Positions 16,320-35,199 of a stretch of 45,413 nucleotides of DNA are shown here, piece after piece. The stretch comes from a virus. The stretch is from positions 1-45,413 of the IMG/VR virus record IMGVR_UViG_3300028563_000031. One strand, 5' to 3'. A program made the position numbers and the translations under genes. Each line of letters begins with the position of its first letter. The first letter of the stretch is position 1. The notes under the pieces were generated by a model. The model did no database searches. It was given only the letters and a program-made list of their open reading frames with translations, and was not told where the DNA came from.

Positions 16320-16327
16320 TAAAGGAC
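16320..16327 (-). promoter_or_regulatory. GTCCTTTA late-module element, copy 1
   Basis: Minus-strand GTCCTTTA 43 nt upstream of the lysozyme ATG. The surrounding TTGTCCTTTAACC and the following CTTCC/CTCAA are also shared with the copy at 25607. Confidence 0.6.
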
Positions 16328-16343
16328 AAACGGGAAGGGAAAT

Positions 16344-16370
16344 AAAAAAGCCAGGTGAGTGGCCTGGCTT
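16344..16370 (-). terminator. Rho-independent terminator after the 138-aa gene
   Basis: On the minus strand AAGCCAGG and CCTGGCTT form an 8-bp stem with a 7-nt loop, followed by six T. It closes the moron-like genes before the lysis module begins. Confidence 0.85.
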
Positions 16371-16396
16371 AATTTCTTATTGATATTTTAGAGAGA

Positions 16397-16813
16397 TTAA
16401 ATGACTTCCATTTTATACCTTATTGTTATATCACCGATTAGTGCATGTAATTTAGCAATCAAATATTTTAATGTTACTAATTTTTCAAGTTCAATTTCCG
16501 AAGGTCTTCCCCACGAAAAATAACTTTCAATAGCTCTTAATTTAATTTCTATTGCAAAACGGTCTTCAATACTTTTATTTATAGAAATTAATTCATCAAT
16601 CATTGATGAAGAATTTTCGACTTTAGCCATATCTAAGCACTCAAAGATATAATCAATATGAGTTCCCGGTATCTCAAAATTCTTTATCACATAGATTGAC
16701 AATTCTTCAAAAGCTTTTAAAATTGTTGCATTTTCTGGAAGTTTTAGTCCTATCCGATTTAAATTAAATCTTATATCTCCAATTTGTGAAGCAATTATTT
16801 GATAATCTTCCAT
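16397..16813 (-). CDS. Hypothetical helical protein, moron-like, 138 aa
   Basis: A soluble, all-helical, acidic protein (ENATILKAFEELSIYVIKNFEI ... EIELEKLVTLKYLIAKLHALI). No family is recognised. It is separated from the secreted DUF4468 gene by an 85-nt AT-rich gap and is followed by a strong terminator, and its codons look more AT-rich than the tail genes around it. That independent packaging between tape measure and lysozyme is typical of a moron, a gene that serves the lysogen and not particle assembly; this is inference. Confidence 0.65.
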   Translation of the reverse strand: MEDYQIIASQIGDIRFNLNRIGLKLPENATILKAFEELSIYVIKNFEIPGTHIDYIFECLDMAKVENSSSMIDELISINKSIEDRFAIEIKLRAIESYFSWGRPSEIELEKLVTLKYLIAKLHALIGDITIRYKMEVI

Positions 16814-16898
16814 AATTATAATTATTAGTTTAATTTATTAAGTTATTTGAAGTCATTGAAATAAATGTCAATTCATCTACAAATTTTATTTCAGAACT

Positions 16899-17621
16899 TT
16901 ACCAATTATTGTTTTGACTTACCTTTTTTATATAACTATCGTATTCCGATACAATTATATTAAGTTCATTTTTTACTGATTCTTGTAAAGTTGTATACCT
17001 TTTTTCATTCAATCCTGTTTTCCATAACCCAGGGAATTCACATCCATCACAAATTTTAATTAAAGGCCAAGCATAAGTTTGACACATTGCGGATGAATTA
17101 TAGATATCACTTACAATAATTTTATATTTACCTTCTTTCATTAAAAAATGCACCATATAATCAAATATATATGTATGATCATTCAATTGAAAAAACAGGT
17201 GCTGAATTGTGGCTCCTTTTACTAATATCATTCCTGAAGTCTTATCATCATTTTGAATAACATTTTGAGCTGATTTCCAATATTCAGCAATAAACATCTT
17301 TGTATCAGAATAAATTTGATCTTTGGTTTTAGTTATACTATCAACCTTTTCAATTTTATAGTCAAGTTGGTTTGCATTATTATTTGATTTTTTTTTATCT
17401 TGAAGTAGTTCAATTGATTCTGTTTGATTTTTTAGTATAACATCTTTCTTTCCTTTTTCATTCCAATAATAAATTTTTTCATCAGTAATATTAGTAACAT
17501 CTATAATTTTTTCAGTTTTATCTTTAAAAATTACTTTGTATTTTATTGGTTCATCATCAGATTGTGCTAATAAATTAAAACTGGATAGAAGGATTGTTAA
17601 TAATACTATAAAATTTTTCAT
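16899..17621 (-). CDS. Secreted DUF4468-like protein, 240 aa
   Basis: The N-terminus MKNFIVLLTILLSSFNLLAQ is a classical signal peptide with probable cleavage after LAQ. The middle has strands pairing as KYKVIFKDKTEKIIDV and KIYYWNEKGKKDVIL. Residues about 88-190 (VDSITKTKDQIYSDTKMFIAEYW ... FDYMVHFLMKEGKYKIIVSD) match the DUF4468 pattern, a TBP-like fold common in secreted Bacteroidota proteins. Particle function is unlikely; a lysogen-expressed envelope or periplasmic protein (conversion or superinfection exclusion) is more plausible. It lies between tape measure and lysozyme with intergenic gaps on both sides and is AT-rich. Confidence 0.72.
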   Translation of the reverse strand: MKNFIVLLTILLSSFNLLAQSDDEPIKYKVIFKDKTEKIIDVTNITDEKIYYWNEKGKKDVILKNQTESIELLQDKKKSNNNANQLDYKIEKVDSITKTKDQIYSDTKMFIAEYWKSAQNVIQNDDKTSGMILVKGATIQHLFFQLNDHTYIFDYMVHFLMKEGKYKIIVSDIYNSSAMCQTYAWPLIKICDGCEFPGLWKTGLNEKRYTTLQESVKNELNIIVSEYDSYIKKVSQNNNW

Positions 17622-17688
17622 GGTTATTTTGGTTAATTTAACATACCATAAAACTACAAACTATATTCCAACTTTCAAAATTGATTGG

Positions 17689-20600
17689 TTATGATTTTGT
17701 TACATCAGCTTGTTGAGCTTCCCAACGCGGCTTAACGATGGTTTCAAAAGTATGCATATTGAAATCAGTTTTAATGCCTTTATCTAAGTGATCATTAAAT
17801 TTATTTAAGGCAGCTGTATGTGCGGAAAGTAATATCAAAAACTGGTCATTTCCATTGTTGCGACCAGGAATACCTTGTGATCCTGAACCTGTTTGTGAGG
17901 ATGTATACCCGCCATTTGCAAAGCCCCTATTAACATTTTGTGCCGCTAAAATTGCAGGTAAATTAATGGTATGGATAGTACCTGAGCGCTGGGCAATATC
18001 AATTATATCGAGTACCGGTTTAACGGTTGGGTTACTAACACCATCAGCATTAGCAACAAATTCGTTTGCGTGAACAATTCCTACGGGTTTATCATTCGAT
18101 GAATCAGTATCGGTAAAACCGCCGGTTTTTAAAGCTTTTACCTGTTGACGTTGGGCATTTGCCTGGGCAACTTCAACGCCTCCCAAAACACCTAGCAGAA
18201 CTGCTGAAACTGTTCCTCCAATCGGTCCTAACTGTGCATATCCGGCCATGATTGCTACAGCAGTATTTGCAAGGATTTGCGCTATTTTAACAGCAAAATC
18301 AATATCGGCATATTTCTTCTTAATGCTTTTCTCTTCCTCTTCCTGTTTTGTTGCAATTTCAGTCTTTGTTTTATTATATTCAGTATCGGAAACTATTCCT
18401 TTTTTGTGATTTTCTTCCAGGTCATTAAGGTCTTTTTGATATTTTGTTGTATTATTTGTGATTGCAACATCCTGTAACCCGGTTTCAATATTTGACATTG
18501 TGTTTAATAACGTCACATATTTTTGAACGTACTGCTGTGCATATTTGAGTTTTATAGCCAATAAGGCAGCTTGAAATTTATCCTCATTCCCTTTGAATGC
18601 ATCGTGTTTTGCATTTAATGCAGCAATCTCATCATTTTCTTGTTCTACAAGGCTTTTTAAATTATATTCTTTTACAGTTAATTCATATTCCTTTATTAAA
18701 TCATCCTGTTGTTTAACGGTATCTTTTGTAATTGATACTTTTAAAGCATCAATCTCTTTTTCAGTTGCAACTGTTGATAAACCAAAAGCTTTTTCAATTT
18801 GTAATGTGGTCTGCAACTGCCCCATTTTCATCGTAAGGATATCTTCATTATACTTTTGCTCGATATCCTTGCGGGCGGTTAAGTTATTACCAGCATTGAT
18901 AAGATCTTGCTTATATTGATCTGTGCGGGCATCAATTAATTGTTGTCCGCTTTCGATGTCCATTTGTATAACATCTTGAGCATTGCTTTCTAAATCCTTT
19001 TGATTTTTTGCAGCGGCATCGTAGGCAATTTTATTCAGATTGGCGGCATGGGAGGCTTCCAGAATTTCGAGGGTAGCCTTTTGTTCCTTGGTAAGGTTTG
19101 TTTGGTCAATATTAAATAACCCGGCTTTTTGTAACCGGTCATTATATTCCTGATTCTCAATATCAATAACTGATGTAGCCGATTGAAGGATGGTATTTAT
19201 ATATTCCTGTTGTTTTACTTTAAAATCCAATAATTTACCATTGATATCGGTTATCTTTTTCTCGATATCGGAATACTGGGTTTTATCGTTTACAAAATTT
19301 TCCTTGTTTTTTGCATAGATGGCAGCTTCGGAGCGTAAACGACTTTGGTTGATAATATCCATTTGCATTGCAAATTGCGCATTGGAAGATTGTCCGTCAG
19401 CGTAACGCTTCTTTTCTTTTGCTTCTAACTGGGTATAGTAGTTTGCGCTTTGGTTTAATTCGGTATCGAGGGTTTCCTTACGCAATGCAACTTCATTTTT
19501 ACTATTCATTGCATTAATTTTCTTCAAATTTTCCTTACCCGAAACAGCGGCATCGGTTAGTTTTACCAAAGATTTTGCATAATCTTCGATCATAACGTCA
19601 GATCCTAAACCAAATTTTTTTAAATTTTCTGCATAGGCAACTATTTTAGGATTATATGAAGCTAATTCGGCATCCATGGCTTTTAACTTTGCCACTTCAG
19701 CATCGTTGGTAACAGGAACAGCAACTCCGGATGACATGGCCATGGCGTTTAAACTTTGCATGGCTTTTTCGTAAGTATTGCGTTTTTCTAGTAATTTATT
19801 ATAATCTTCACCCGCCAGGCGTTCCTTTTCGCTATTGAAAGTAATAATATCTTTTATTTCATCTTCGCTTAGTTTTGTTCGGCTTTTCAATTGCAACAAC
19901 TGGGCATCATATTCCTGCTGTGCAACATCAACCCTTTCCTTAACCATTTTTTTCTCGTTTTCAATACGTGCCTTACCAGCCTCTAAGCGTTCAGTCAGAG
20001 ATTTTGTGCGGTCACGCATATCTTCTTCGAGTTGCACATTTTTTGCATGTTCGGCAGCTTCGTTTATAGACAGTGCAATAGTTTTTTCCTTTACCTGGTC
20101 CATCATTTCAGCATATTGATAACCAACTGCAATGGCTTCGGATAAATTGTCAATGAAATTATGCCAATCGCCAGAAACCATGGTTTTATAAAAATATTGT
20201 AAGCCTGATTGCATTCCGGCAACGGCAAAATTGTATTGATCTCCACTGGTTTTAGTGGATTCAACCATTTCGTGAAAATTCTCTTTGAACAGTTCAATGC
20301 CTTTTTTGCCAAGTTCTACCAGGCCAACGCCGGTGAAGATTTCTTTGAGATGAGAGAAGGCGCCGCCGGATTGTTCAGTAGCGCCTTTTAATTCTTTTTG
20401 TCTTGCTGTAACGTCGTCGAGTTCTTTTTTGTAGGATTTAAATGTGTCGGAATCGGGAGCGAGGTTTGCTAAAATAAATTTCAATTCCTTGCTGCGCTGT
20501 CCAAGTTCTTTCATGGTAAGTCCATCCAGGCCGATTTCGTGCCGGATGTCTTCCATTTGTTTTTCGAGGGATTTGAGGGAATCCATTTTAGTAGCCTTTT

Positions 20601-20730
20601 CAAACTCATCCTTGGTACTTTTTATTTCTTTCTTAAGATCTGAAGCTTGTTTGCTTAATTCGGCAAGTTTTAACCGCTGTGGATCGCTGTTAATTAAAAG
20701 ATCGAGTTGTATTTTATCAATTGTAAGCAT
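17689..20730 (-). CDS. Tail tape measure protein, 1013 aa
   Basis: The longest late gene before the lysis region. Residues 1-115 and about 215-640 are long coiled coils rich in Lys, Glu and Gln. A glycine-alanine hydrophobic region at about 800-850 (IAQILANTAVAIMAGYAQLGPIGG) is the membrane-active segment typical of tape measures. The C-terminus is Gly/Ser/Thr-rich and ends with a polar tail. At about 1.5 angstrom per residue this length predicts a tail near 150 nm. It follows the 153-aa gene with a 1-nt gap. The protein sets tail length and is ejected with the DNA. Confidence 0.93.
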   Translation of the reverse strand: MLTIDKIQLDLLINSDPQRLKLAELSKQASDLKKEIKSTKDEFEKATKMDSLKSLEKQMEDIRHEIGLDGLTMKELGQRSKELKFILANLAPDSDTFKSYKKELDDVTARQKELKGATEQSGGAFSHLKEIFTGVGLVELGKKGIELFKENFHEMVESTKTSGDQYNFAVAGMQSGLQYFYKTMVSGDWHNFIDNLSEAIAVGYQYAEMMDQVKEKTIALSINEAAEHAKNVQLEEDMRDRTKSLTERLEAGKARIENEKKMVKERVDVAQQEYDAQLLQLKSRTKLSEDEIKDIITFNSEKERLAGEDYNKLLEKRNTYEKAMQSLNAMAMSSGVAVPVTNDAEVAKLKAMDAELASYNPKIVAYAENLKKFGLGSDVMIEDYAKSLVKLTDAAVSGKENLKKINAMNSKNEVALRKETLDTELNQSANYYTQLEAKEKKRYADGQSSNAQFAMQMDIINQSRLRSEAAIYAKNKENFVNDKTQYSDIEKKITDINGKLLDFKVKQQEYINTILQSATSVIDIENQEYNDRLQKAGLFNIDQTNLTKEQKATLEILEASHAANLNKIAYDAAAKNQKDLESNAQDVIQMDIESGQQLIDARTDQYKQDLINAGNNLTARKDIEQKYNEDILTMKMGQLQTTLQIEKAFGLSTVATEKEIDALKVSITKDTVKQQDDLIKEYELTVKEYNLKSLVEQENDEIAALNAKHDAFKGNEDKFQAALLAIKLKYAQQYVQKYVTLLNTMSNIETGLQDVAITNNTTKYQKDLNDLEENHKKGIVSDTEYNKTKTEIATKQEEEEKSIKKKYADIDFAVKIAQILANTAVAIMAGYAQLGPIGGTVSAVLLGVLGGVEVAQANAQRQQVKALKTGGFTDTDSSNDKPVGIVHANEFVANADGVSNPTVKPVLDIIDIAQRSGTIHTINLPAILAAQNVNRGFANGGYTSSQTGSGSQGIPGRNNGNDQFLILLSAHTAALNKFNDHLDKGIKTDFNMHTFETIVKPRWEAQQADVTKS

Positions 20731-20731
20731 T

Positions 20732-21193
20732 CTATGCGGTTTTAAATGGATCGATCAATCTTTTTCTAAGGTCAAGGCGCACCGATTCAGAAAATCCATA
20801 ACTTATTCGGCCAACAAGTAAATTAAGCCTTCCCCAAACATTTTTATTATACCAGTTAGGCGCCTGTTTTTTATTTTTCTTAGACCTATCTTTAATGCCA
20901 TAAAGAATAGAATTAGTACTTACACGCGAACTTTCCCTTGCGCGTGACCTGTTTTTTCGGTACATTAACTCAACCAACCTACCTTTATCGGGAAATAAAA
21001 ATTTTATCCTGCCTCCCTTTTCGCCTTCTCTTGAGGTTATAAATGAAATTTCATCCCGTAAATGGTCATGGTCCTCTTTGCTTATTATATCCTTATCCAC
21101 AATTGAATTCACCATTAATTCACGAAGCTCAATTCCCCAGCGTTTAAGCTCCATCATTATAAAATTCCATTCCAGGTAATCCGATTCGGTCAT
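20732..21193 (-). CDS. Hypothetical tail-assembly protein, 153 aa, upstream of tape measure
   Basis: A basic protein (REGEKGGRIKFLFPDKGRLVELMYRKNRSRARESS) with a conserved-looking C-terminal segment NKNVWGRLNLLVGRISYGFSESV. Position immediately before the tape measure is that of tail assembly chaperones or minor tail proteins. It overlaps the 182-aa gene by 4 nt (stop and start share ATGA). No slippery frameshift site is evident here. The function is inferred from position only. Confidence 0.65.
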   Translation of the reverse strand: MTESDYLEWNFIMMELKRWGIELRELMVNSIVDKDIISKEDHDHLRDEISFITSREGEKGGRIKFLFPDKGRLVELMYRKNRSRARESSRVSTNSILYGIKDRSKKNKKQAPNWYNKNVWGRLNLLVGRISYGFSESVRLDLRKRLIDPFKTA

Positions 21194-21738
21194 AACAGGT
21201 TCATATAATTAACGTTAATTACCAGTTGCCATCCAATACTTTCACAAAGCCAGAAAGGATCAATTGGATCCAATTGAAAAGGATTGTCTAGCCAACGTTG
21301 TACAGGGCAGTTTTCACGATCGTCTTTTTTAAGAAAATTAATGAGTGTGGTCATGATTTCAAATGCCCTGGATGATTGAAGCATTTCTCCCATCGAATCC
21401 ATTTCTGATCCTGTCCAGTGACTCGCAATTGTTAATTGTACTGTCATCTTTGAGTCGCGAACCCTTACTTCGTTCATCGGACCACCACCAATGCCTCCCG
21501 GTTCAACCAACAGGAAATAACCATCTATGCCAGCAATACTTTCGGCTAACTTCTTATCGTTTGTGTAAACCACAAAATCAGTCAATTCAGGAATCAGGCT
21601 ATTCGGATCCATGGCTGATATATATGCTTTCAGATCGGCATATCCTGGAATGGTATCATCTTCCCGGGCAAAGTTTTTAACTACACCCTCCAATAATGGA
21701 TAACGTGCAAAATATTTTATAATATCAATTGGTACCAT
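21190..21738 (-). CDS. Candidate tail/neck protein, 182 aa
   Basis: A soluble alpha/beta protein. The pattern DGYFLLVEPGGIGGGPMNEVRVRDSKMTVQLTIASHW followed by SSRAFEIMTTLINFLKKDD resembles tail-terminator or neck proteins, which have a strand-rich core and a flanking helix. It lies 3 nt after the 320-aa gene and overlaps the 153-aa gene. Tail completion is a reasonable guess from order and shape, not established. Confidence 0.6.
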   Translation of the reverse strand: MVPIDIIKYFARYPLLEGVVKNFAREDDTIPGYADLKAYISAMDPNSLIPELTDFVVYTNDKKLAESIAGIDGYFLLVEPGGIGGGPMNEVRVRDSKMTVQLTIASHWTGSEMDSMGEMLQSSRAFEIMTTLINFLKKDDRENCPVQRWLDNPFQLDPIDPFWLCESIGWQLVINVNYMNLL

Positions 21739-21741
21739 GTA

Positions 21742-22704
21742 TCAGAGTTTTAAAACAGTTTCAATTGGCAACTTTAAATCGATGGATATTTCACCATTGT
21801 TTTTTTTCATTCCGCGAAGCGAAACAACAGCCTCCTGAATGCTTTTTACCTGTATGTTAAAAAAATCGGTAATTGGCATCATTACCACATCATCAATTTT
21901 CCCATAACCATCTTTACTCATTGTATAAACATGTCCATAAGAACCGAGGGATATTTTATCCGGATCGCTTTCCCCGGATCCTGAAAACAGGATTCCAAAC
22001 ACAGGATGGTTATAAAAATAGTTCTGCCAGCAAATCAGCATGAACCATATTGCCTTTAATTCTTTATTGAGATGTTCCTGGAATAATATGGCACGCTGTT
22101 GTGCTTCAAAAGTGTTATATTTTTGCCTGTTTTGGCGATAAAGACAAGCGGCCATATTAGCCAGGTACTTTGTATCTTTTGTTTGAGCGTAAATATGTTG
22201 GTATTCATAAGCGTCAAGGTATTCTCCAACGGTTATATCGGTTTCAAGAATTCCGAATTTGTCAATATTGAATACCGGGCCATGAAATTTTTTCTTTCCA
22301 ATACTGATTTCTGGTAATAAATTGCTAGTAAGTGCAAGATTAAAACCAAATTTAGGTTGGATGATCGATTTAACTGTTTCAAGTTCCTTCAGCAGTGTTT
22401 TATCATCAATCTCATCAGGTAAGGCATAAGTCAGTATATTTTTAAGCTTATTGCTTAAAACCTGCACAACATCATCATTTATGCTGATGCTGAAGACAAA
22501 TTTTGTCCATTCGGCCAGGCATTGATGGCAGCAAATTTCAACTTTAGGCTTTGGAAGTTTCTCACCAACCAATATTTCAAGAATTTTAAAGCGTAGTTCT
22601 GCTTTTGCCATTGATCCGGCATCAAATAATAAATTTACAACCTCTTTAAATTTTGAAGGTGTAAGTTCGTCCCAGGCTGTTTCTATCTTATATTCCTTCA
22701 TCAT
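21742..22704 (-). CDS. Hypothetical morphogenesis protein, 320 aa
   Basis: No family is recognised with certainty. The protein has cysteines in ICCHQCLAEW (about 57-66) that could bind metal, a predicted soluble helical N-terminal half, and a C-terminal part with FSGSGESDPDKISLGSYGHVYTMSKDGYGKIDDV and DFFNIQVKSIQEAVV. It is transcribed between the connector-like gene (1-nt overlap) and the tail/neck candidate. Tail assembly or chaperone function is inferred from order. Confidence 0.65.
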   Translation of the reverse strand: MMKEYKIETAWDELTPSKFKEVVNLLFDAGSMAKAELRFKILEILVGEKLPKPKVEICCHQCLAEWTKFVFSISINDDVVQVLSNKLKNILTYALPDEIDDKTLLKELETVKSIIQPKFGFNLALTSNLLPEISIGKKKFHGPVFNIDKFGILETDITVGEYLDAYEYQHIYAQTKDTKYLANMAACLYRQNRQKYNTFEAQQRAILFQEHLNKELKAIWFMLICWQNYFYNHPVFGILFSGSGESDPDKISLGSYGHVYTMSKDGYGKIDDVVMMPITDFFNIQVKSIQEAVVSLRGMKKNNGEISIDLKLPIETVLKL

Positions 22705-25561: not shown

Positions 25562-25606
25562 TCACTCAGCTATTTTATGCTAAGGAAATATATTGAGAGG
25601 AAGGGT

Positions 25607-25614
25607 TAAAGGAC
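25607..25614 (-). promoter_or_regulatory. GTCCTTTA late-module element, copy 2
   Basis: Minus-strand GTCCTTTA 45 nt upstream of the 117-aa gene and overlapping the end of the terminase region. It shares the longer context TTGTCCTTTAACC with the copy before the lysozyme. Confidence 0.6.
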
Positions 25615-25622: not shown

Positions 25623-27557
25623 TTATAAACCAGTAATATGTGCGCTATCCGGAATAGCTTTTGGTTTATATTGTTCACCATATAAACCCCATAATAGGTA
25701 CATTAAAGCTGAAGGTAGTTGCGTAGAAAACCAAACCTGATCTTCATATTCCAGTTTTACTTCGCTGGTTTTGTCAAGTTCAATTCCAAAACCTTTCTCT
25801 CTTTTTAGCGGGCTCATATAAATACAAGAGATTAATTGTTCACACTCATACTGGCAAATTCCTATGCGTGGGGTACGTTTCTCACGTTCACTGAGCAATA
25901 TTTCAAGTAACATAAAATGTTCCCAATAGAATATAGTGCGCTGATCGGAAGGTGTGCAAAGTTCAACCCTCCATCCGAGATCCTCCAGACAACGTTTTAA
26001 AATCGCTATGTCAGTCTTACCTTTTGGGTTATTTGCATATATTTCTTTGCGTTGATTACCGGCACGATCGTAATATATCCGCATGTATTTCTTTTGATGT
26101 GGCCTGAAGAATTCATTTATCTCCAGAGCTAAATCAAAATGTTGCCTGGGAGTCCAGACAAAGAAGTTTTTTAATACTTTGAGGTCATTTCCTTTCTCCT
26201 GGGCGATAACGCAACTCATAAAGTTGCCCGGATCGAATCCCATAAGCAAAGGTTTGCATGTATCGCAGTATTTAAGGTCAGCGCTAGTTCGCTTATATTC
26301 TCCCGCTACGTTTACATCATCAAAACCACCAGGTCCTTTATCATATTTATAACTGTCAGTAAAAATATGTTGCTTTCCAAACCAGGCAAAGAACATTTCT
26401 TTAACCCTGTCAGGCCTTATGCCTAAAATAGACAATAAAAACTTTGAAACGTTACTTTTAGCGCCTTTGAACTGACGTGTAATATAATCATTGCCCAAAA
26501 CAGCCAGATTACTGAAGGATGAACCTTTAATATATGACCATAATCCGGATTCTTCCTTACGTTTTTCGAGTAGAAAAGCCTTCCAACGATTAATAAACCT
26601 TGTTAATCGTAATATTTCGGCCTCCGCAGACTTAATTTTGGTTAATAAACCTGATTTTCTGGCTTCTTCAAGGTCTACTTCAGCATTTAAAAGCTCTCCT
26701 TCAGCTTTTAGAGTACGAAAAGCAATGTATTCAATCAAATCAAGTGCCGATCGGTTAACATTTTCTTCGTAATGCGTCCACCAGTCTTCATCGTTTTCAA
26801 AATTTGGAGTACTTGAGAATCCTGTCATTCCACCGAAATAGTGAGAATGGCCATATATTTCCCTGTCTTCACGTAAAGTTGGAAATACCCGTTCAACAAA
26901 ATCGGTTTCTTTAATGCGTAAAAGTTCGTCAACAAACACATGTACAACGCTTTTACCAATAATACTTTCAGGACGGTCAAGGCTTCCAAATAACAAAACG
27001 GTTCCCCACGCAAATGAAATGGTATGTTTCCATGATCCAACCGGAGTCAACGGCCTTTTAAAATGTTTGGGCGGCTCCTTGCCGTATTCATAATGTATAC
27101 CTCTAGTATAATGCTTACCCAAATATGTAATGATGCCTGGTACAATTGTATCCATGGCAAACGTATAAGTTGGAGCAACCAGCAACATTGTACTCCTGGG
27201 CATATCATAAGTAATGCGAACAATGCGGGGAGCGAACATCTCAGTAGTTTTGCCGGATCCTCGACCAACTTCACCAAGCAAATTTTGAGTGTCTGATAAT
27301 AAAACATGATGCTGAACAACAGTATTATATTTATCAATAAATTCTATATTACTGTTATAAAATCCAGCGACCATGCTCATTGCAAAAACACTCGACCCGG
27401 AGAAGTCAAAAAAACTATCTAAATTTAAGTGAGGAAGTATTGATATGATTAAGGAGAAAGCAACAATGGCGATGAGTAGCAAAGCAAATTTTCTCAGTAA
27501 TTTAAGTCTATAAAGAAAAATATTGCTTTGGCTTCTGGCTAATTGCTTTTTATTCAT
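25623..27557 (-). CDS. terL: Terminase large subunit with an unusual N-terminal membrane-anchor module, 644 aa
   Basis: The ATPase-nuclease that packages DNA. Walker A is GRGSGKTT at 98-105, Walker B is in VVHVFVDELLR around 203-213, and the nuclease acidic residues lie in MGFDPGNFMS (near 415) and MRIYYDRAGN (near 470). Unusually, the first about 70 residues precede the normal start of the domain and contain a basic patch (NKKQLARSQ), a hydrophobic helix at about 23-41 and SFFDFSGSSVFAMSMVAGF. This module recurs at the start of the 337-aa virion protein. A shorter start at M60 or M62 would remove it. It overlaps the upstream gene by 8 nt. Confidence 0.93.
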   Translation of the reverse strand: MNKKQLARSQSNIFLYRLKLLRKFALLLIAIVAFSLIISILPHLNLDSFFDFSGSSVFAMSMVAGFYNSNIEFIDKYNTVVQHHVLLSDTQNLLGEVGRGSGKTTEMFAPRIVRITYDMPRSTMLLVAPTYTFAMDTIVPGIITYLGKHYTRGIHYEYGKEPPKHFKRPLTPVGSWKHTISFAWGTVLLFGSLDRPESIIGKSVVHVFVDELLRIKETDFVERVFPTLREDREIYGHSHYFGGMTGFSSTPNFENDEDWWTHYEENVNRSALDLIEYIAFRTLKAEGELLNAEVDLEEARKSGLLTKIKSAEAEILRLTRFINRWKAFLLEKRKEESGLWSYIKGSSFSNLAVLGNDYITRQFKGAKSNVSKFLLSILGIRPDRVKEMFFAWFGKQHIFTDSYKYDKGPGGFDDVNVAGEYKRTSADLKYCDTCKPLLMGFDPGNFMSCVIAQEKGNDLKVLKNFFVWTPRQHFDLALEINEFFRPHQKKYMRIYYDRAGNQRKEIYANNPKGKTDIAILKRCLEDLGWRVELCTPSDQRTIFYWEHFMLLEILLSEREKRTPRIGICQYECEQLISCIYMSPLKREKGFGIELDKTSEVKLEYEDQVWFSTQLPSALMYLLWGLYGEQYKPKAIPDSAHITGL

Positions 27558-28197: not shown

Positions 28198-28490
28198 ATT
28201 GAATCGCTTATAGTTTCACCCAGATAATCGGAGATCATAAGGTTTGCCCTCATTTGTCTTTTAAGATTGATGGTTTCAATCTCTGCCTTGGCTGATAGAA
28301 GTTTAATATCTGGTCCCATTGTTGAATTGCCAAGCCGAAAAGCATCAAATAATTCAGAATCTTTGTTGGAGAATTCCATCATTATTTCAGATGGATTATC
28401 AGGATTGAGATAATCGGAAATTTCCTGCATGGTTTTGCCATGTTGAGCCATCTTTATAACTTCATTCAGTATATCAGCATCAAGGTTCAT
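28194..28490 (-). CDS. Small HTH-like packaging-cluster protein, 98 aa
   Basis: Residues about 10-30 (EVIKMAQHGKTMQEISDYLN) look like a helix-turn-helix, followed by a helical region (KLLSAKAEIETINLKRQMRANLM). It overlaps the 215-aa gene by 4 nt. A GTCCTTTA element is 42 nt upstream. A DNA-binding role in packaging, possibly as the small terminase itself with the 215-aa protein as an accessory, is an alternative reading. Confidence 0.65.
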   Translation of the reverse strand: MNLDADILNEVIKMAQHGKTMQEISDYLNPDNPSEIMMEFSNKDSELFDAFRLGNSTMGPDIKLLSAKAEIETINLKRQMRANLMISDYLGETISDSI

Positions 28491-28532
28491 TCAGTATTTT
28501 TGCTGCTAAATAACAACGGTTATGCCTGATAA

Positions 28533-28540
28533 TAAAGGAC
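28533..28540 (-). promoter_or_regulatory. GTCCTTTA late-module element, copy 3
   Basis: Minus-strand GTCCTTTA 42 nt upstream of the 98-aa gene, the first gene of the packaging module. Confidence 0.6.
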
Positions 28541-28605
28541 GATTGATAAAGTAGATTTTAATGGTAATATTTGACTTATTGCTTTTTTCATCATACTTTT
28601 GACCC

Positions 28606-28732
28606 GACGATTTTCAACATTCAAAAGTTTAGGCCTTATTACCCAAAGATAAAGAAGGTCTGGACGCATCAAAGGCCATGCGAAAGCATGGCTGTGGGTG
28701 TTGAAAATCGTCAATTTTCTGTCCAGGCCTTC
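28606..28732. other. Structured intergenic region with mutually exclusive stems
   Basis: Stem A pairs GACGATTTTCAACA (28606-28619) with TGTTGAAAATCGTC (28699-28712), a perfect 14-bp inverted repeat. Stem B pairs GAAGGTCTGGAC (28654-28665) with GTCCAGGCCTTC (28721-28732), 11 Watson-Crick pairs plus one position that is a G-U wobble only in plus-strand RNA. Inside is a hairpin GCCATGC-GAAA-GCATGGC with a GNRA loop on the plus strand. Stems A and B interlock, so the RNA would form a pseudoknot or switch. It could also be a cos/pac site beside the terminase genes. Confidence 0.6.
28620..28644. repeat. Imperfect direct repeat flanking the methyltransferase, copy 1
   Basis: The 25-nt segment ending in GCCTTATTACCC matches 29551-29576 with two substitutions and a 1-nt gap. 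The pair brackets the methyltransferase gene, suggesting the gene was gained or can be lost by recombination between them. Confidence 0.55.
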
Positions 28733-28738
28733 CCTCTT

Positions 28739-29541
28739 TTAAACTAAAGAATAATTCATTGTAAGTACTTCCGTTTTTTTCTTACCGTTTCCGGAGCCTT
28801 TATTGACACTTACTTCCATGTTAAAAGTTTTATTAATCCATTTGTTTCTCTTAGTATATTCAGTAAGTAAATCAGAAGGATAAGAACTTAGTATAAACTT
28901 GCCTTTAACTTCAGATAAAAGTTTTAGAAGGTTTTCAAAATCATCCTTTGAATATCCATCGTAATGGCCACAATCTGAATTATAATAAGGAGGATCACAA
29001 TAAAAAAATGAATCAATACTATCCCTGGAGTTTATAATTCGAAGCGCATCAGTGCATTCAATTTGAACATTCTGCAAACGAATTGCAAAGTCTTCGGTAA
29101 ATGATTCCCGCTTGTTTCTGATCTTCTTTGATGTTGTACATTTTTTGATATCATAACCCCAGGATCCGTCTAGTATTGAACTGAAACTTTGTGCAGCCAA
29201 TGCCCAAACCGCCCATGCTCTTTTAACTTCAGAAAACATGTGCGGATTGTTATAAATAACATCGGCATCTTTGTGCAATCTGCGACTGTGAAGCGAGATC
29301 CTTACTTCCTTCTCCAATCCGACAAAATCGTTCTGGACCACTCGGTAAAAGTTTATTAACTCATTGTTCGTATCGTTTATCACTTCAACCGCTGAAGGAT
29401 CCTTAGCGAAGAAAACGGCTGCTCCTCCAATAAAAGGTTCACAATAAAGTGAGTGTGGAGGAATTAATTCAATAATTCTTGTACATAGTTTTTGTTTTCC
29501 ACCATAATAACTGATTGGTGTTTTGAGGACTTTTTTTTCAT
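28739..29541 (-). CDS. D12-class adenine-N6 DNA methyltransferase (Dam type), start out of frame across an A8 tract
   Basis: Reading upstream of GTG 29383 in the same frame gives VLKTPISYYGGKQKL, then YCEPFIGGAAVFFAK (AdoMet-binding FxGGxA motif), VINDTNNELINFYR, and the catalytic DPPYY in FFYCDPPYYNSD. This is the motif set and order of D12 Dam methyltransferases. The only suitable ATG (29541-29539) is followed by eight A (29538-29531) and is one base out of frame. Nine A would give MKKKVLKTP and a 267-aa protein, the usual Dam length. A product begun at GTG 29383 would lack the cofactor motif. So the gene is phase-OFF, frameshift-dependent, or a homopolymer miscall. Confidence 0.88.
29531..29538 (-). 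repeat. A8 homopolymer after the methyltransferase start codon
   Basis: Eight adenines on the coding strand directly after ATG. One more base restores the frame of a full-length D12 methyltransferase. Such a tract is a typical slipped-strand phase-variation site. Confidence 0.8.
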
Positions 29542-29865
29542 TATAAAAGATTTAAAAGGTTAGTGCCTTATTACCCGTTAAATCAATTATTCAAATATTC
29601 ACTATTTATTTAGCCTCGGAAAAGACAAAACACTGAATAAAGTTATCATATGGAGGTTCTTTGCTGCTGATTTTAGTATTAAACCATTTAATTTCAAATT
29701 TTTGGTTCAAAAAATAAATTTTTCAAAAAATTTGTATCAATTTATTTAGCGCACCGCTGATAATTGGGTTTGTAATACAATGAACTTTCAAAACACAGAT
29801 ATATGACAAGCATTACTTTTTCAATTACTTACACTATAGATTTAATTTGAATTTTTTTTGGTAGT
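29542..29865. other. AT-rich non-coding gap upstream of the methyltransferase
   Basis: I see no credible gene in these 324 bp. They hold one copy of the direct repeat (29551-29576) and a very AT-rich stretch near 29690-29745 with a weak internal complementarity (CAAATT...AATTTG types). It is probably a promoter or leader for the methyltransferase. Confidence 0.45.
29551..29576. repeat. Imperfect direct repeat flanking the methyltransferase, copy 2
   Basis: Partner of 28620-28644. On the minus strand both copies read GGGTAATAAGGC, then a C/T-rich stretch and a short distance to ATGAAAAAA, so they could also be duplicated leader sequences. Confidence 0.55.
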
Positions 29866-30231
29866 TTATTTCGATATAAGTTGTTTCATCAACGATAATT
29901 TAGAAGAGTACTCTTCAATGATATGCATCCAGTCTGCACGTTCATCATCGTTCTTATACTTCTTATTGCTTATTTGAGAACGATATCGAGTAATGCTCTT
30001 ATCTGCATTGATCAAGTCACGCATAAACTTTTCAGGATCAAGTTTGCGCAATTGTTCTAATTCTTTTTCTAACTTATATTCTATTAATAGAGGGTGTTTG
30101 TATAGAAAGGTTTTGTTCTTCTCGTAATGGGATAGTTCGAGAAAGGCAATATGGTTACGTGTATCAGCATTAACAAAGGTCTGTGCAGTTTCATCATTAG
30201 CAGAATCAAGAATCGCGTCTAATCTTACCAT
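29866..30231 (-). CDS. Helical protein, 121 aa, probably the -1 frameshift extension of the upstream gene
   Basis: From ATG 30231 this gives a charged helical protein (EKELEQLRKLDPEKFMRDLI ... EEYSSKLSLMKQLISK). Its frame stays open 5' of that ATG through YPGINWTDINDKEIQLCHLLYEDRVYSYE with no start codon, right into the 3' end of the 247-aa gene and its A9 tract (30341-30349). A -1 slip there would fuse the two into a product near 398 residues. This resembles the G/GT tail-chaperone arrangement of lambda, though it sits in the head region here. Independent initiation at ATG 30231 is the alternative. Confidence 0.7.
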   Translation of the reverse strand: MVRLDAILDSANDETAQTFVNADTRNHIAFLELSHYEKNKTFLYKHPLLIEYKLEKELEQLRKLDPEKFMRDLINADKSITRYRSQISNKKYKNDDERADWMHIIEEYSSKLSLMKQLISK

Positions 30232-30308
30232 TGTTTCGTAAGAATAAACGCGATCTTCATATAGTAAATGACAGAGTTGTATTTCTTTGTCATTAATATC
30301 AGTCCAGT

Positions 30309-31052
30309 TTATACCTGGGTATTCTGTTCTTGGTCCCCGCTTTTTTTTTCTTTACTACCAGGGATAACAGTATCAGTTCCTTTGACCACTTCCTTAACAG
30401 GATCAACTACATCAGTCCCTTTTACTTCTTCCTTAATGGGTTCAGTTGTAGTAGTCCCTTGCCCTTCTTCTATATTATTGGTACTTGCATCAGTTCCTTG
30501 GCCTATGGTATTGAGTTCAGTCATGGTTGATTCTGTTGAACTATCAGGATACCCATTGTCTTGATCCTTTTCAGACTCTAATCCTGATTCAACTTGCTCT
30601 TCTGTTAATGATGCTGCAGTCAATAACAATTCGGCTTTCTTTGCTTTTAAAGCAGCCAAATAAGTATCGCCTTTATTATCTGAAGTTGGCAATAACAACC
30701 CAAATACCAAAGTCTTTAAAACATTGTATTTGTGTTTACCATCAAGATCGATTGCTAATAACTCAGTTTCAAACTCATTTAATTCTCCAACCTTTTTAAG
30801 AGGCACGATAAAGTTGTCTTTATCTTTTGTAAATCCTCTGCCTTCCCAAATGGTACAATCACAAACTGCGCTATTCATTAATTCATAACACATTCTTTCA
30901 TCCAATTCCTTTTTGTTGTATTTACCTGCCAATTCAAGATCAGGTAATAACTTGGAAGCCGGAAAAATCTTTTTATAAAGCTCCTTGTCGGCATCAAACC
31001 ACTTTTCGTCTGTGTGGTTCATTAAAAAATGATTGATTTCTTTGAATTCCAT
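30309..31052 (-). CDS. Late virion-assembly protein, 247 aa, with slippery 3' end
   Basis: The N-terminal 150 residues are soluble and look folded (EINHFLMNHTDEKWFDADKELYKKIFPASK ... YNVLKTLVFGLLLP). From about 165 it becomes low-complexity, with a repeat EEVKGTDVVDPV / EVVKGTDTVIPG, and ends in KEKKSGDQEQNTQV. GAA AAA AAA AGC (30350-30339) contains the heptamer A AAA AAA in the correct phase for -1 slippage. A GTCCTTTA element is 63 nt upstream, so it begins its own module after the virion protein terminator. Scaffold or tail chaperone are possible roles, not shown. Confidence 0.7.
   Translation of the reverse strand: MEFKEINHFLMNHTDEKWFDADKELYKKIFPASKLLPDLELAGKYNKKELDERMCYELMNSAVCDCTIWEGRGFTKDKDNFIVPLKKVGELNEFETELLAIDLDGKHKYNVLKTLVFGLLLPTSDNKGDTYLAALKAKKAELLLTAASLTEEQVESGLESEKDQDNGYPDSSTESTMTELNTIGQGTDASTNNIEEGQGTTTTEPIKEEVKGTDVVDPVKEVVKGTDTVIPGSKEKKSGDQEQNTQV
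30341..30349 (-). promoter_or_regulatory. Putative -1 ribosomal frameshift site (A9)
   Basis: Nine adenines on the coding strand, read GAA AAA AAA AGC in the 247-aa frame, allow tandem -1 slippage. The -1 frame then runs AAG CGG GGA CCA without stops into the 121-aa frame. A G-rich stretch follows at once, but I cannot define a stimulatory structure. Confidence 0.6.
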
Positions 31053-31115
31053 ATCGATAAGATTTAAAGTTAAAATTTAATATTTATTCAAATTAATGGT
31101 TTGGTTTTCAAACCT

Positions 31116-31123
31116 TAAAGGAC
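31116..31123 (-). promoter_or_regulatory. GTCCTTTA late-module element, copy 4
   Basis: Minus-strand GTCCTTTA 63 nt upstream of the 247-aa gene and immediately after the terminator U-tract of the preceding gene. This is the only copy with a longer spacing. Confidence 0.55.
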
Positions 31124-31125
31124 AT

Positions 31126-31155
31126 AAAAAACCCGCCCTGGCAAAAGGCGGGTTT
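31126..31155 (-). terminator. Rho-independent terminator after the 337-aa virion protein
   Basis: AAACCCGCC and GGCGGGTTT form a 9-bp GC-rich stem followed by T6 on the minus strand. It isolates the virion protein from the 247-aa gene. Confidence 0.88.
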
Positions 31156-31180
31156 AAAACTAACTAATCGAAACTAACAC

Positions 31181-32194
31181 CTAATTTCGGGATCCTGCAA
31201 CTTCGACAAATACATATGTTGCACCTCCAAATATTTTAAAGGAAATCTGTTTTCCTGCATTTGCAGTCCAGGTTGCACCACCAATTAGTAAAAATGTAGC
31301 TGAAGCTGCAATTGTACTTGGAAATGCCCCTCCAGATCCTTGAAGTGTAATAATCCTTCCGACATCAGAATCGGATGTTCCTGTTATTGCTGTAATTGCT
31401 TTTGCCGATGTGGCAGCTGTTGTTAATTGATAAACTGGATTAGAGGTAAGCAAAATAGTCGTTGCATCTGCAGCGACGGTTACTGGATCAGCTATTGGCG
31501 TACTACCAACATATTTATTCAGAATATCACCACATTCATTGGCAAAAGTGATTGTTGTGGCTGTTTTGTCTTTATCAGATCCACCATCAAATTTCGTCAT
31601 TCGAAGCGGCTTGCAGGAATTACCACCAATATAATTCTCACTTGTGGCACATATTTGCAAAACAACGTAAAACCCTTTGCCTATTCCAATCTTAAGATAA
31701 TTGAAAATATCTGTTGACATTCCTCCGATAATCAGAGTAATTTCAGTATTTATAACTGCAGCTATTTCACCTTGAGTACCTGACCATTTTAATGAAGGCG
31801 TATCAATAACGGAATCTATATATTTCCATTTTTCGCCCGCTTTTAAAGGAATATTGGCAACTTCGCCATTAATGGCTGCTGGAAATTGTTGTGTATCGTC
31901 CACCTGGGCCTGCTCAATAAACCATAATCGCGCTTTGATCTGCTTACCAATTTTTTGTGTATTATCCGGATCACCGTCAATATTTCCAAATCCACTGACC
32001 ACTCCTGCAGTTATTACACTTCCCGAACCGGCCAGGTCAAAAAAATGATCCATGCTCAAATTACCTGTAATTACTGAGCCAATAACATAAATGGCTAATA
32101 TAACCCCTATCGCAATGGCAAAGTTTTGTATGATTTTCATCCTGGAGCGTAAAACCTTGTTCTGGCTCCAGGCCAATTGTTTTTTATTTTTCAT
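31181..32194 (-). CDS. Mosaic membrane-anchored virion protein, 337 aa
   Basis: Residues 1-71 repeat the terminase N-terminal module: NKKQLAWSQ, a hydrophobic helix at 25-42, then DHFFDLAGSG ... VVSGFGN. Residues about 75-235 are a soluble domain with no family I recognise (KARLWFIEQAQVDD ... FYVVLQICATSENYIGG). Residues about 240-337 (AADATTILLTS ... AITAITGTSDSDVGRIITL ... FVEVAGSRN) match the C-terminal domain of the neighbouring capsid protein. It is flanked by its own terminator on each side. A capsid decoration or tail tube protein is possible; the membrane anchor is odd for either. Confidence 0.78.
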   Translation of the reverse strand: MKNKKQLAWSQNKVLRSRMKIIQNFAIAIGVILAIYVIGSVITGNLSMDHFFDLAGSGSVITAGVVSGFGNIDGDPDNTQKIGKQIKARLWFIEQAQVDDTQQFPAAINGEVANIPLKAGEKWKYIDSVIDTPSLKWSGTQGEIAAVINTEITLIIGGMSTDIFNYLKIGIGKGFYVVLQICATSENYIGGNSCKPLRMTKFDGGSDKDKTATTITFANECGDILNKYVGSTPIADPVTVAADATTILLTSNPVYQLTTAATSAKAITAITGTSDSDVGRIITLQGSGGAFPSTIAASATFLLIGGATWTANAGKQISFKIFGGATYVFVEVAGSRN

Positions 32195-32235
32195 TTACGA
32201 ATTTTTCAGTTGTGAATTTTTATGGATTAAAACTT

Positions 32236-32271
32236 AAAAAAATACCTGGCAATAGGATGCCTATTGCCAGG
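32236..32271 (-). terminator. Rho-independent terminator after the major capsid gene
   Basis: CCTGGCAATAGG and CCTATTGCCAGG form a perfect 12-bp stem with a 3-nt loop, followed on the minus strand by a run of seven T. A strong stop between capsid and the mosaic virion protein would set their relative amounts. Confidence 0.92.
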
Positions 32272-32279
32272 ATTAATGA

Positions 32280-34247
32280 TTATGTAGTTACCTTACGGCC
32301 AACTTCAACAAATTTGTTGTTCGATGCGTCAGTACTGTCGTCTCTGTTTAAATACAGATAAACTTCAAGGTAATCACCTACTGCGGTTGGAATCCATGCA
32401 TCAACCAGTGAAAATTTACCTGATTTTGCCGTTACGGAAGGATATGTTGCGCTTCCGCAGGTTATTCTGTAAACAATTCCTGCAACTGCATTCGTTATAT
32501 CCGTAATGGTGGGTGCCGATACTGCGTTAGCAATAGTTTGGAAAAACATTCCTTTGCTGGCATCACAGGTAGTTGCATTTGCTGCCAGAGCTATTGTAGG
32601 ATCAGTCATGAAAATGTACTGGTTCTGATAATTATCTGCTGTTAATGCAGCCAATGTTGCAAACTTTTTACCAACCATAATAGCATTTACGCCTTCTTTC
32701 CAGTAGCTATAAACCATCAGTTCTTCAAGATCGCGTTGCATTCCAATTTTTGCCATTTCACCGGCTTTATTTTCGATCAACTCAATATTACCTGGCATGG
32801 TAAGCCACATAAAACATAAATTACCCATGTTTGGAACACCCTGAATACTAACATCAGGATAATTCATTATAGTTGATTTATTTCCGGAATAATCCTGTTG
32901 TAATGCATAAGCGGCTCTAAATGCTGCATTGTACCAAGGTAAATGTTTTTCATTAACGTGCAGAACCATACCTTTTAATGAAGGAAGAACTTTATTCACA
33001 TCTTCAACAAAACTTTCAACATAAGTAAGAACAGTACTTTTTGTGTAAGTTGTATAAGCAGTAAAAGGTTGAAGACGGAAATCATTCCATGCCCATTTCA
33101 ACAATTTACGAATAACACCTGTAGAACCGTGCAAATGATGTCCTGCTTTTGTTAAAGTAGGTTCAACCCTGCAACCTAAGATACGGCGTTCATTCCATTC
33201 GTTCATCAGAACTTCAAGAATACGTGCCAACATCCATTCAATCCAGGTCCATTTCATAGGGTCACTGCCTTCACGATTCAGGTAACCAATGTATTCTTTT
33301 TCCAATTCTTTAAGATTTGAAAACTTATGTTTAAACATAAGGTCGAATACTTCAGCTTCGATTGGCTCAACTGATGCGCCACCTTTGAAAACACGGCCTC
33401 CTTGAAAAGATTGAGAGAAACTGGTTAAAAAAGCATTTGTCAATACTTCTTTATTCTGAACTCCATATCTTGTTGGAAAGATACCTGCAATTGAATTCAA
33501 AGTTCGGATATAAGCTATTAACGCATCCTGACGGCGAATAATATATTCTTCACCCCAACCGGTATTATCAAATCCCGTAAAATCAATGTCCTGCATTTTG
33601 ATTGAACCAAGCTTTCCTTCAGCTTGCAATTCACCCATACGGTTAGCCAATGTTTTGGCATAAGAACCAAGTGCTTTTTTAAAATCACTTTCGTACTCTT
33701 CCCAATTACCTTCCATTCCTTTATCAGCTGCAAATACTTCTAAAGGCCTACGGGTTGCAGCAACTATGTTCCAAGGTTTATCCATTGCAAATAAAGGAGC
33801 TTCAATGCCAAAAAGGTACTTTTCGGTAGTTTTACCGCCAGTAATTGGAATAACTTTTCCTTTTGGAACCACTTTTTTAGGTTCAGATGCTTCAGGTTCT
33901 TTTTTCAAAGCTTCAATTGTTTTTTCCTGTTCAACTACTTTTGTTTTAATTTCAATGACAGCCTCTGCAGTCGTTTTTGTTGGTTTTTCATCACCAAAAA
34001 CAGCCTTGATCGTTTCTTTTTGATCATCGGCCAAAGCCTGAATTTCCGTGTCAGTTTTATCACTACCATCGTCAGCGTCTCCGCCTTCCATAATAGCTTT
34101 TAGAACATCAGAAAAACTCATTTTAAGTTCTTCCTGGCATTTAGCCTCAATTTTTGCGAGTTCTTCTTTGGAAAGATCATCACCGCCGGTTTTCATTTTT
34201 GCGGTATATCCCAAAGCCGCAATAATTACTTTAAACTTCTTTTTCAT
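32280..34247 (-). CDS. Major capsid protein with fused N-terminal scaffold, 655 aa
   Basis: Residues 1-135 are acidic, with coiled-coil segments (KVVEQEKTIEALKKEPEASEPKK), and look like a scaffolding/delta domain to be removed by the adjacent protease. The main body (about 140-560) has features of HK97-fold capsid proteins of Bacteroidota phages (YIIRRQDALIAYIRTLNSIAGIFPTRYGVQ, RRILGCRVEPT, MVLHVNEKHLPWYNAAF). Residues about 560-655 form an added beta domain shared with the 337-aa protein. It follows the S49 protease with a 10-nt gap. Cleavage near KKVVPKGKVIPITGG is plausible. Confidence 0.88.
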   Translation of the reverse strand: MKKKFKVIIAALGYTAKMKTGGDDLSKEELAKIEAKCQEELKMSFSDVLKAIMEGGDADDGSDKTDTEIQALADDQKETIKAVFGDEKPTKTTAEAVIEIKTKVVEQEKTIEALKKEPEASEPKKVVPKGKVIPITGGKTTEKYLFGIEAPLFAMDKPWNIVAATRRPLEVFAADKGMEGNWEEYESDFKKALGSYAKTLANRMGELQAEGKLGSIKMQDIDFTGFDNTGWGEEYIIRRQDALIAYIRTLNSIAGIFPTRYGVQNKEVLTNAFLTSFSQSFQGGRVFKGGASVEPIEAEVFDLMFKHKFSNLKELEKEYIGYLNREGSDPMKWTWIEWMLARILEVLMNEWNERRILGCRVEPTLTKAGHHLHGSTGVIRKLLKWAWNDFRLQPFTAYTTYTKSTVLTYVESFVEDVNKVLPSLKGMVLHVNEKHLPWYNAAFRAAYALQQDYSGNKSTIMNYPDVSIQGVPNMGNLCFMWLTMPGNIELIENKAGEMAKIGMQRDLEELMVYSYWKEGVNAIMVGKKFATLAALTADNYQNQYIFMTDPTIALAANATTCDASKGMFFQTIANAVSAPTITDITNAVAGIVYRITCGSATYPSVTAKSGKFSLVDAWIPTAVGDYLEVYLYLNRDDSTDASNNKFVEVGRKVTT

Positions 34248-34257
34248 ATTGATTGAT

Positions 34258-35148
34258 TTAAGAATTAAATAATGATTTTATTTGTTGATTTTGAGCCTTA
34301 TTAAAGGCAAGTTGTATAATTTCATCGAATGGCATTACATTATCAATGAGGCCATTCATTTTTGCATTTATTTCGCCATAATTGGCAAAAAAGGTGCGCC
34401 CATTAAGCGTTCCTTCAACTGCGGGGTTAACGTTTGGCCGGTTAGTCTTAACTGTTTCCTGAAAATGAGTAGCCCATGGAGTGAGTTCTTCACTGATCAA
34501 TAATTCGGGGTTTCCTTTTTGGGCTTCAGTAATGGCTTTGTTTTTCCAATTGCTTTCGGGAGGTGTAACACGAATGAGTTTAATACCCATTTGTTTGTAC
34601 ATTTCATCATAGTTTGGAATATCGGCCATTACACCAATACTACCTACCTGGCACATTGGATCAATAGCGTTGATACTATCAAAGAATGAAGAGATGTAAT
34701 AAGCTGAACTCATGTCAATATTATCCACTGCAGCCAGGCATGGTTTGTTTTTCTTTGCCATGATCGCTTTCATTGGAAATATTGAATCAACTGTTCCACC
34801 AGGAGAGTTAACACGTGCCACAATTGCTTTGATGGCATCATTTTCAAATGCATCCTCGAACATGGCAGCAATATCTTCAGTGCCATAATCCCACCATGAT
34901 CCGGAACGAGTCAAAACTCCAGAAATGGGAATAACAGCAACGCCTTCCATTTCCTTGTCATCATCATTATTGCAGGGGTTGAGCATGTCATCGAAAATGC
35001 TCATTTTTAAAACAGGCTTATCAGGCAAGGTAAGAACCTGACCTTTGCTGATTGCTAATAAATAAGGATAGTATTTTACCATTGCTTCTGGAGTGACCAA
35101 AAGCGTACTGGTAAAAATTTCATCGAAGAATTTGGAATATTTCTGCAT
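34258..35148 (-). CDS. S49-family (SppA/protease C-like) prohead protease, 296 aa
   Basis: A ClpP/crotonase-fold serine protease. VNSPGG at 113-118 gives the oxyanion strand, MSSAYYISS at 146-154 contains the nucleophile Ser (S148), and GSIGVMADIPNY at 169-180 is the conserved loop; a Lys near 198-200 would complete the dyad. It precedes the scaffold-capsid fusion directly, as head-maturation proteases do. Its start codon lies 3 nt from the foot of a 15-bp perfect hairpin, and a GTCCTTTA element overlaps the other foot, so translation of the head operon may be controlled there. Confidence 0.9.
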   Translation of the reverse strand: MQKYSKFFDEIFTSTLLVTPEAMVKYYPYLLAISKGQVLTLPDKPVLKMSIFDDMLNPCNNDDDKEMEGVAVIPISGVLTRSGSWWDYGTEDIAAMFEDAFENDAIKAIVARVNSPGGTVDSIFPMKAIMAKKNKPCLAAVDNIDMSSAYYISSFFDSINAIDPMCQVGSIGVMADIPNYDEMYKQMGIKLIRVTPPESNWKNKAITEAQKGNPELLISEELTPWATHFQETVKTNRPNVNPAVEGTLNGRTFFANYGEINAKMNGLIDNVMPFDEIIQLAFNKAQNQQIKSLFNS

Positions 35149-35151
35149 AGA

Positions 35152-35192
35152 AGCAATTTTAATGCAATGCTATACAATGCATTAAAATTGCT
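35152..35192 (-). promoter_or_regulatory. 15-bp perfect hairpin in the head-operon leader
   Basis: AGCAATTTTAATGCA (35152-35166) and TGCATTAAAATTGCT (35178-35192) are perfectly complementary, with an 11-nt loop. Its 3' foot on the minus strand is 3 nt before the protease ATG. No U-tract follows, so it is not a terminator. It would bury the ribosome-binding region or serve as a protein-binding operator. Confidence 0.75.
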
Positions 35193-35199
35193 AAAGGAC
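35192..35199 (-). promoter_or_regulatory. GTCCTTTA late-module element, copy 5
   Basis: Minus-strand GTCCTTTA 43 nt upstream of the protease start and touching the leader hairpin. Confidence 0.6.

Follow-up and report, generated by a model that had tools for sequence, protein, structure and literature searches.

We investigated an octamer, GTCCTTTA, in a viral DNA sequence of 45,413 nucleotides (nt), the IMG/VR virus record IMGVR_UViG_3300028563_000031 from position 1 to 45,413 (the whole stretch is called the window below). Judged by sequence comparison, the octamer forms the upstream half of a late promoter of a kind not described before, which is common to a large group of Bacteroidota viruses, and a 168-amino acid (168-aa) protein encoded just ahead of the late genes probably acts as the switch protein recognising it. 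As a sequence entity this promoter class is near certain.

A probable two-box promoter upstream of the late modules

We observed five copies of GTCCTTTA on the minus strand, which is the coding strand, each upstream of a late module. An earlier inspection of the window by eye of a model (the original prediction) had listed these five copies with their strand and had placed four of them 42–45 nt and one 63 nt before the ATG; all were found where they had been listed, and the distances between octamer end and ATG were measured as 43, 45, 42, 63 and 43 nt. Counting both strands, the octamer occurs seven times compared to 1.6 ± 1.25 expected copies, a number that none of 100 shuffles gave; the two extra copies are located on the plus strand (26333 and 36631), antisense within genes. 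Octamers with one mismatch are not in excess in the window (48 vs 40 expected) and were dropped as a motif for lack of enrichment, so the signal is the exact octamer in its context.

A host-type −7 box similar to TAnnTTTG begins exactly 19 nt past each of the five octamers (TATCATTG, TTCCTTAG, TTATTTAG, TTAATTTG and TAGCATTG). The summed match to the Bacteroidota −7 box TAnnTTTG reaches 23 of 30 at offset 19, with a sum of 16 at the runner-up offset, and a score of 23 at any offset was obtained neither in 20,000 dinucleotide shuffles nor in 20,000 sets of other gene starts. At this single spacing all five sites match the box at 4–5 of 6 positions, and the predicted start base, four further nt past the −7 box, is A in five of five promoters. 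The TTTG usually expected at −33 of promoters of sigma-ABfr, the Bacteroidota primary sigma factor, is missing, its place being occupied by GTCCTTTA or lineage variants. A scan of the window for sigma-70-type promoters gave no surplus over shuffles, and Rfam and tRNA scans gave no matches. The promoters and the terminator-like hairpins next to them are as follows:

35165..35199 (−): late promoter 1, protease/capsid module; octamer 35199-35192, 19-nt spacer, −7 box TAGCATTG 35172-35165; predicted start 35160 (A), leader 12 nt
31089..31123 (−): late promoter 2, 247-aa gene; octamer 31123-31116, −7 box TTAATTTG 31096-31089; predicted start 31084 (A), leader 32 nt
28506..28540 (−): late promoter 3, 98-aa gene followed by the packaging genes, the large terminase among them; octamer 28540-28533, −7 box TTATTTAG 28513-28506; predicted start 28501 (A), leader 11 nt
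25580..25614 (−): late promoter 4, 117-aa gene followed by a portal-like 519-aa gene; octamer 25614-25607, −7 box TTCCTTAG 25587-25580; predicted start 25575 (A), leader 14 nt
16293..16327 (−): late promoter 5, GH25 lysozyme module; octamer 16327-16320, −7 box TATCATTG 16300-16293; predicted start 16288 (A), leader 12 nt
31129..31155 (−): terminator-like hairpin directly upstream of late promoter 2
16348..16370 (−): terminator-like hairpin directly upstream of late promoter 5

Late promoters 4 and 5 share a 45-nt stretch with 78% identity. A further element at 29592-29626 (−) combines a GTCTTTTC box with AATATTTG at 19 nt and lies upstream of a D12 methyltransferase gene, the true start of which is probably upstream of the listed one (29383); the element may be a sixth promoter or a chance occurrence.

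Conservation in related phages and prophages

In total about 220 related loci were compared. The viral set comprised 79 loci fetched by a terminase profile, the window and eight named phage records, while a further set of 70 loci from bacterial genomes, found with a closer terminase alignment, contains partly the same prophages as the viral set. No close DNA-level relative of the whole window was found in the phage collection, and scans with single proteins returned at most a near-identical fragment and otherwise no match. The large terminase of the window shares 28–37% identity with its counterparts in Porphyromonas gingivalis siphophages, Bacteroides phage BT-TP2 and Duneviridae phages, and the order of the late genes is similar in these relatives. 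We observed the same promoter design upstream of the syntenic late modules of the named relatives, with the box GTCCTTTA in P. gingivalis phages, GTCCTTTT in BT-TP2 and Ingeline, GTCTTAA in 6H and GTCACAA in laban; in the P. gingivalis phages L006 and L007 the same element is found upstream of the protease gene.

In the viral set, 141 of 185 late-strand copies of GTCCTTT are followed by a −7 box (at least 5 of 6 positions) at exactly 19 nt, with at most 4 at any other offset, compared to 5 of 81 copies on the opposite strand. A search seeded with the −7 box alone returned GTCCTTT as the top upstream word (111 vs 4 on the other strand), followed by GTCTTTT and GTCACAA. The 70 loci from bacterial genomes contain 130 boxes vs 5 on the opposite strand; after removal of redundant prophages, 88 of 169 copies have the −7 box at offset 19, compared to an average of 0.9 for the other offsets and to 5 of 202 copies on the opposite strand. 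For the flavobacterial relatives the counts are 54 vs 0 for TGTCACA and 18 vs 0 for TGTTACA. The box varies between lineages (GTCYTTT, GTCACA, GTTACA, GTAACA, GATACA, GTCTTAA) at unchanged spacing, and the −7 box is nearly invariant across the relatives, both in the scan and in the consensus. The consensus of 142 non-redundant sites has A at the predicted start, and so do 73 of the 110 sites in relatives that have no ATG at that position.

Searching ten whole host genomes with the strict two-box pattern, we found 22 matches compared to 2 with a shifted spacer. Most of the 22 cluster on prophage-carrying contigs, the remainder being about as frequent as control patterns, and no host regulon of such promoters was found outside prophages in the ten genomes. 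A late promoter of this kind is not named in the deposited annotation of the relatives or in the literature searched, which was mainly open-access.

A motif search in related phages had been proposed by the original prediction, and it returned the octamer or its variants conserved upstream of late modules. Where the octamer had been called a late promoter element or operator, the promoter element fits the comparative tests and the free-standing operator does not, the octamer being the −33 half of a two-box promoter. The idea that a phage activator acts on it agrees with the fixed 19-nt spacing, the clade-wide conservation before late modules and the absence from the host chromosome outside prophages.

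A candidate activator family that covaries with the box

The candidate for this activator, also put forward by the original prediction, is encoded in the window as follows:

35729..36235 (−): 168-aa candidate late activator gene; C-terminal helix-turn-helix-like region, K142 at the covarying column

Homologues are encoded at the equivalent position in P. gingivalis phages and BT-TP2, and those of 6H, laban and Ingeline were recovered by an iterated profile; the homologue is gp8 in BT-TP2 and gp042 in laban. The family is present in the window, in each of the six named relatives that were examined whole and in practically every record having enough sequence upstream of the terminase, about 140 loci altogether. 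Its gene precedes the late genes and the first box: we counted 318 boxes in 2166 kb downstream of the family gene and 3 in 299 kb upstream. In none of 111 relatives does a box occur within the 160 nt upstream of the family gene itself. For this reason the near match TTCCTTTA, which had been reported before the 168-aa gene and is indeed present at 36281-36288, is probably nonfunctional, and autoregulation of the gene through it was rejected. The promoters directly before the regulator gene at L149:3917, L152:3907 and L122:3752 carry a host-type −7 box, and those of L149 and L152 have a palindromic upstream box, TTGTGCC...GGCACAA, possibly an operator controlling the activator itself.

None of 32 family members matched a Pfam family (Sigma70 included, E up to 1). 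Likewise MotA and AsiA gave no Pfam match in the family or in the other window proteins tested, for which a subset of open reading frames was scanned. Against PHROG, a single member gave a strong match, to a family without known function. In the predicted structure of the 168-aa protein (predicted local distance difference test score 88.6) the C-terminal helices span residues 87-114, 119-129 and 137-167, and the model can be read as a helix-turn-helix whose recognition helix begins at residue 137. Weak structural matches to DNA-binding domains fall on this C-terminal part; among them is a weak match of residues 103-155 to VpsT (Z 3.5), with no GerE match in Pfam. Foldseek returned nothing at E ≤ 0.001, and the best VIA-align score (Z 5.2 across 53 residues) is insufficient to name a fold.

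Covariation between box and protein was analyzed among 107 non-redundant regulators, using loci with at least two copies of their commonest box. At the column of K142, lysine or arginine goes with GTC in 76 of 76 cases, valine with GTT in 3 of 3, methionine with GTA in 2 of 2 and leucine with GAT in the single case. Among the 179 columns of the flavobacterial set, the K142 column has the strongest association with box base 3. For L177, L224 and L171 the residue was read before the box and suggested a base other than C, which was found at base 3 in all three. On a terminase tree, in which the regulator plays no part, about seven changes of base 3 were counted, and M, V and Q each occur on separate branches. 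Since the family varies in step with the box, it is probably the protein that reads it; we regard the covariation as good but not decisive evidence for this.

Predicted leaderless starts and hairpins in read-through RNA

At 46 of the 142 non-redundant sites an ATG is located 3–6 nt past the −7 box, so the predicted mRNA would be leaderless or nearly so. The window promoters are unlike this class, their predicted leaders being 11–32 nt long. In B. thetaiotaomicron about 3.7% of 5′ untranslated regions are shorter than 10 nt (PMC7366714).

We also observed that the untranscribed part of the promoter is complementary to the start region over at least 8 nt at 35 of 276 sites, compared to 5.6 in re-paired controls, none of 500 being as high. 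In the window this applies to one predicted structure:

35153..35191 (−): hairpin across the protease promoter; arms 35191-35178 and 35166-35153, ending beside the ATG

Its minimum free energy is −21.4 kcal/mol (z −4.33). By its predicted position the hairpin is confined to read-through RNA and cannot form in RNA begun at the predicted start 35160. We considered the palindrome as a shared operator and found this unsupported, as the sequences vary among phages and strong repeats are a minority; masking of the start codon in read-through RNA appears to fit better. At L141:16599, L144:16622, L012:12496 and L131:3735 10–14 nt of the promoter spacer are complementary to the beginning of the first late gene, and read-through RNA would therefore hide the start codon there as well.

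Proposed mechanism and alternative explanations

We consider it likely that a MotA-like phage activator, the 168-aa protein, works together with the host primary sigma factor at these two-box late promoters. The conserved −7 box points to the host primary sigma factor, and the replaced −33 box to a phage specificity protein at that place. The octamer would then act as the −33 element of a phage-specific late promoter, and host RNA polymerase with sigma-ABfr would read the −7 box. The 168-aa protein would bind the asymmetric box via its C-terminal helix-turn-helix region, replace or support the usual contact with the −33 TTTG, and recruit or position the polymerase. The activator gene would belong to the end of an earlier transcription unit, and once its product is made the separate late modules would come on together, each from its own promoter copy, often directly after the terminator of the preceding module. 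The two-box architecture, its exact spacing, conservation and restriction to phages, the gene order and the covariation of box and protein were obtained by computation; promoter activity, binding of the 168-aa protein to the box and its contact with polymerase are what we infer. Tentatively, and with somewhat more doubt than belief, we extend this to a new activator family that redirects the Bacteroidota primary sigma factor at clade-wide late promoters, in which one residue of the recognition helix would set base 3 (C for K/R, T for V/L, A for M) and so give naturally diverged activator–promoter pairs, a third of the sites would start 0–2 nt from the ATG and about a tenth would hide the start codon in read-through RNA.

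Several observations weigh against the proposed mechanism. Two of the five −7 boxes in the window fit TAnnTTTG at just 4 of 6 positions. Glutamine at the K142 column goes with GTT in three cases and with GTC in four, and threonine goes with GTC in the one case found. A tree-aware sign test is not significant (5–6 independent pairs, of which 3–4 agree and none disagrees; p 0.125–0.5). The 168-aa family is also without a known sequence relative, and the structure searches gave weak matches.

The two-box promoter could be real and its −33 box be read by another phage protein, for instance a LuxR-type regulator encoded close to the primase gene or a sigma factor that escaped detection, with the 168-aa protein as a mere neighbour. 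Some flavobacterial relatives do carry a gene for a LuxR/GerE protein beside the primase gene, and the 168-aa family has no annotated DNA-binding domain. However, neither a GerE nor a sigma domain turned up in the tested window proteins or in the tested Porphyromonas and Bacteroides counterparts, the 168-aa family accompanies the box in every lineage, column 142 is the best of 179 for base 3, and the residues paired with non-C boxes recur on separate branches, so that we regard another reader as unlikely. We give still less weight to the 168-aa family being a divergent sigma factor that reads both boxes and displaces sigma-ABfr as T4 gp55 does sigma-70. The exact 19-nt spacing would suit a single rigid complex on both boxes and the protein has the size of a small extracytoplasmic function (ECF)-type sigma factor, but a phage sigma factor becomes less likely as no sigma domain is detectable (Sigma70 in 0 of 32 members, though a distant fold similarity may exist), and the −7 box holds the host consensus, including the avoidance of G at two free positions as in F. 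johnsoniae, while the −33 box varies by lineage.

An element of a host alternative sigma factor or host regulator, borrowed by the phages, would explain why the −7 half is host-type; it seems very improbable given the few strict matches in the ten host genomes, mostly on prophage contigs with the remainder near control level, and a box that varies together with a phage protein. That the octamers are chance occurrences, or that they form a structural or packaging repeat that plays no part in transcription, is barely credible. There are just five such copies in the window and copies with one mismatch are not enriched, but the spacing statistics, the relatives and the redundancy-filtered new set counter this, and chance is refuted by the comparative data.

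Other features of the genome and significance

The window ends (1-127 and 45287-45413) share 127 identical bases, so the window is probably a complete, circularly permuted genome. At 37770-39829 (−) a reverse transcriptase gene (phrog_1423) adjoins a 125-nt repeat with three copies, one beside it (38784-38908) and two inside the paralogous genes 38943-39356 and 39374-39829. These two differ from the first mostly at A (23 of 43 and 22 of 44 differences), a pattern that resembles a diversity-generating retroelement acting on two target genes. A Tad2-like gene (Thoeris anti-defence) at 36454-36801 (−) seems to carry an insertion, as 109 residues align to a 73-position profile. The first approximately 70 residues of the large terminase (25623-27557, −) lie outside the matches to its relatives and are 42% identical to those of a 337-aa late protein (31181-32194, −).

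Little seems to have been described about how the phages and prophages of Bacteroides, Prevotella, Porphyromonas and Flavobacterium control their late genes. Our analysis provides a concrete promoter class, a candidate activator family and a putative residue-to-base rule. If true, an uncharacterised family would gain a function, genes could be dated as late by sequence alone, and regulator–promoter pairs would become available for bacteria in which E. coli promoters fail.

Comparison with known systems

A close parallel in design is offered by the T4 middle promoters (MotA/AsiA), which likewise retain the downstream box of the host and have a short asymmetric phage box in place of the host upstream element (PMC2988021). 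The MotA box is centred at −30 and is read at many promoters by a small monomeric phage activator (PMC2988021). Its sequence, (a/t)(a/t)(a/t)TGCTTtA, lies 12 ± 1 bp from the sigma-70 −10 box (PMC2988021), whereas here GTCCTTT or a lineage variant lies about 19–20 bp from the sigma-ABfr −7 box and precedes late genes. No relative of MotA or AsiA was recognised here, and as far as sequence goes the 168-aa protein belongs to a different family; the resemblance between TGCTTTA of T4 and GTCCTTTA is probably a coincidence.

With the sigma-ABfr promoters of the hosts (−33 TTTG/−7 TAnnTTTG; PMC7366714, PMC6847099) the late promoters share the −7 box with its G-poor free positions, and their predicted starts would likewise be an A at a distance of 4 nt; many mapped starts in F. 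johnsoniae are 4–5 nt past the −7 box (PMC6847099). In the host promoters the −33 element is weak or variable and the spacing varies, while here a nearly invariant box stands at exact spacing. The predicted read-through hairpins resemble those of the T4 genes e, soc, 49 and I-TevI, where the promoter lies in the 5′ arm of a hairpin hiding the start codon and only the late RNA started at the promoter is translatable (PMC3014915). The T4 hairpins were shown experimentally and are paired with gp55 late promoters (PMC3014915), whereas ours are predicted from sequence, in Bacteroidota, which do without Shine–Dalgarno pairing. Nearest to the window are the Duneviridae phages 6H, Ingeline and laban and the P. 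gingivalis siphophages, in which the late gene order, the promoter architecture and the upstream gene of the 168-aa family are all as in the window and the differences lie in the box variants GTCTTAA, GTCCTTTT and GTCACAA.

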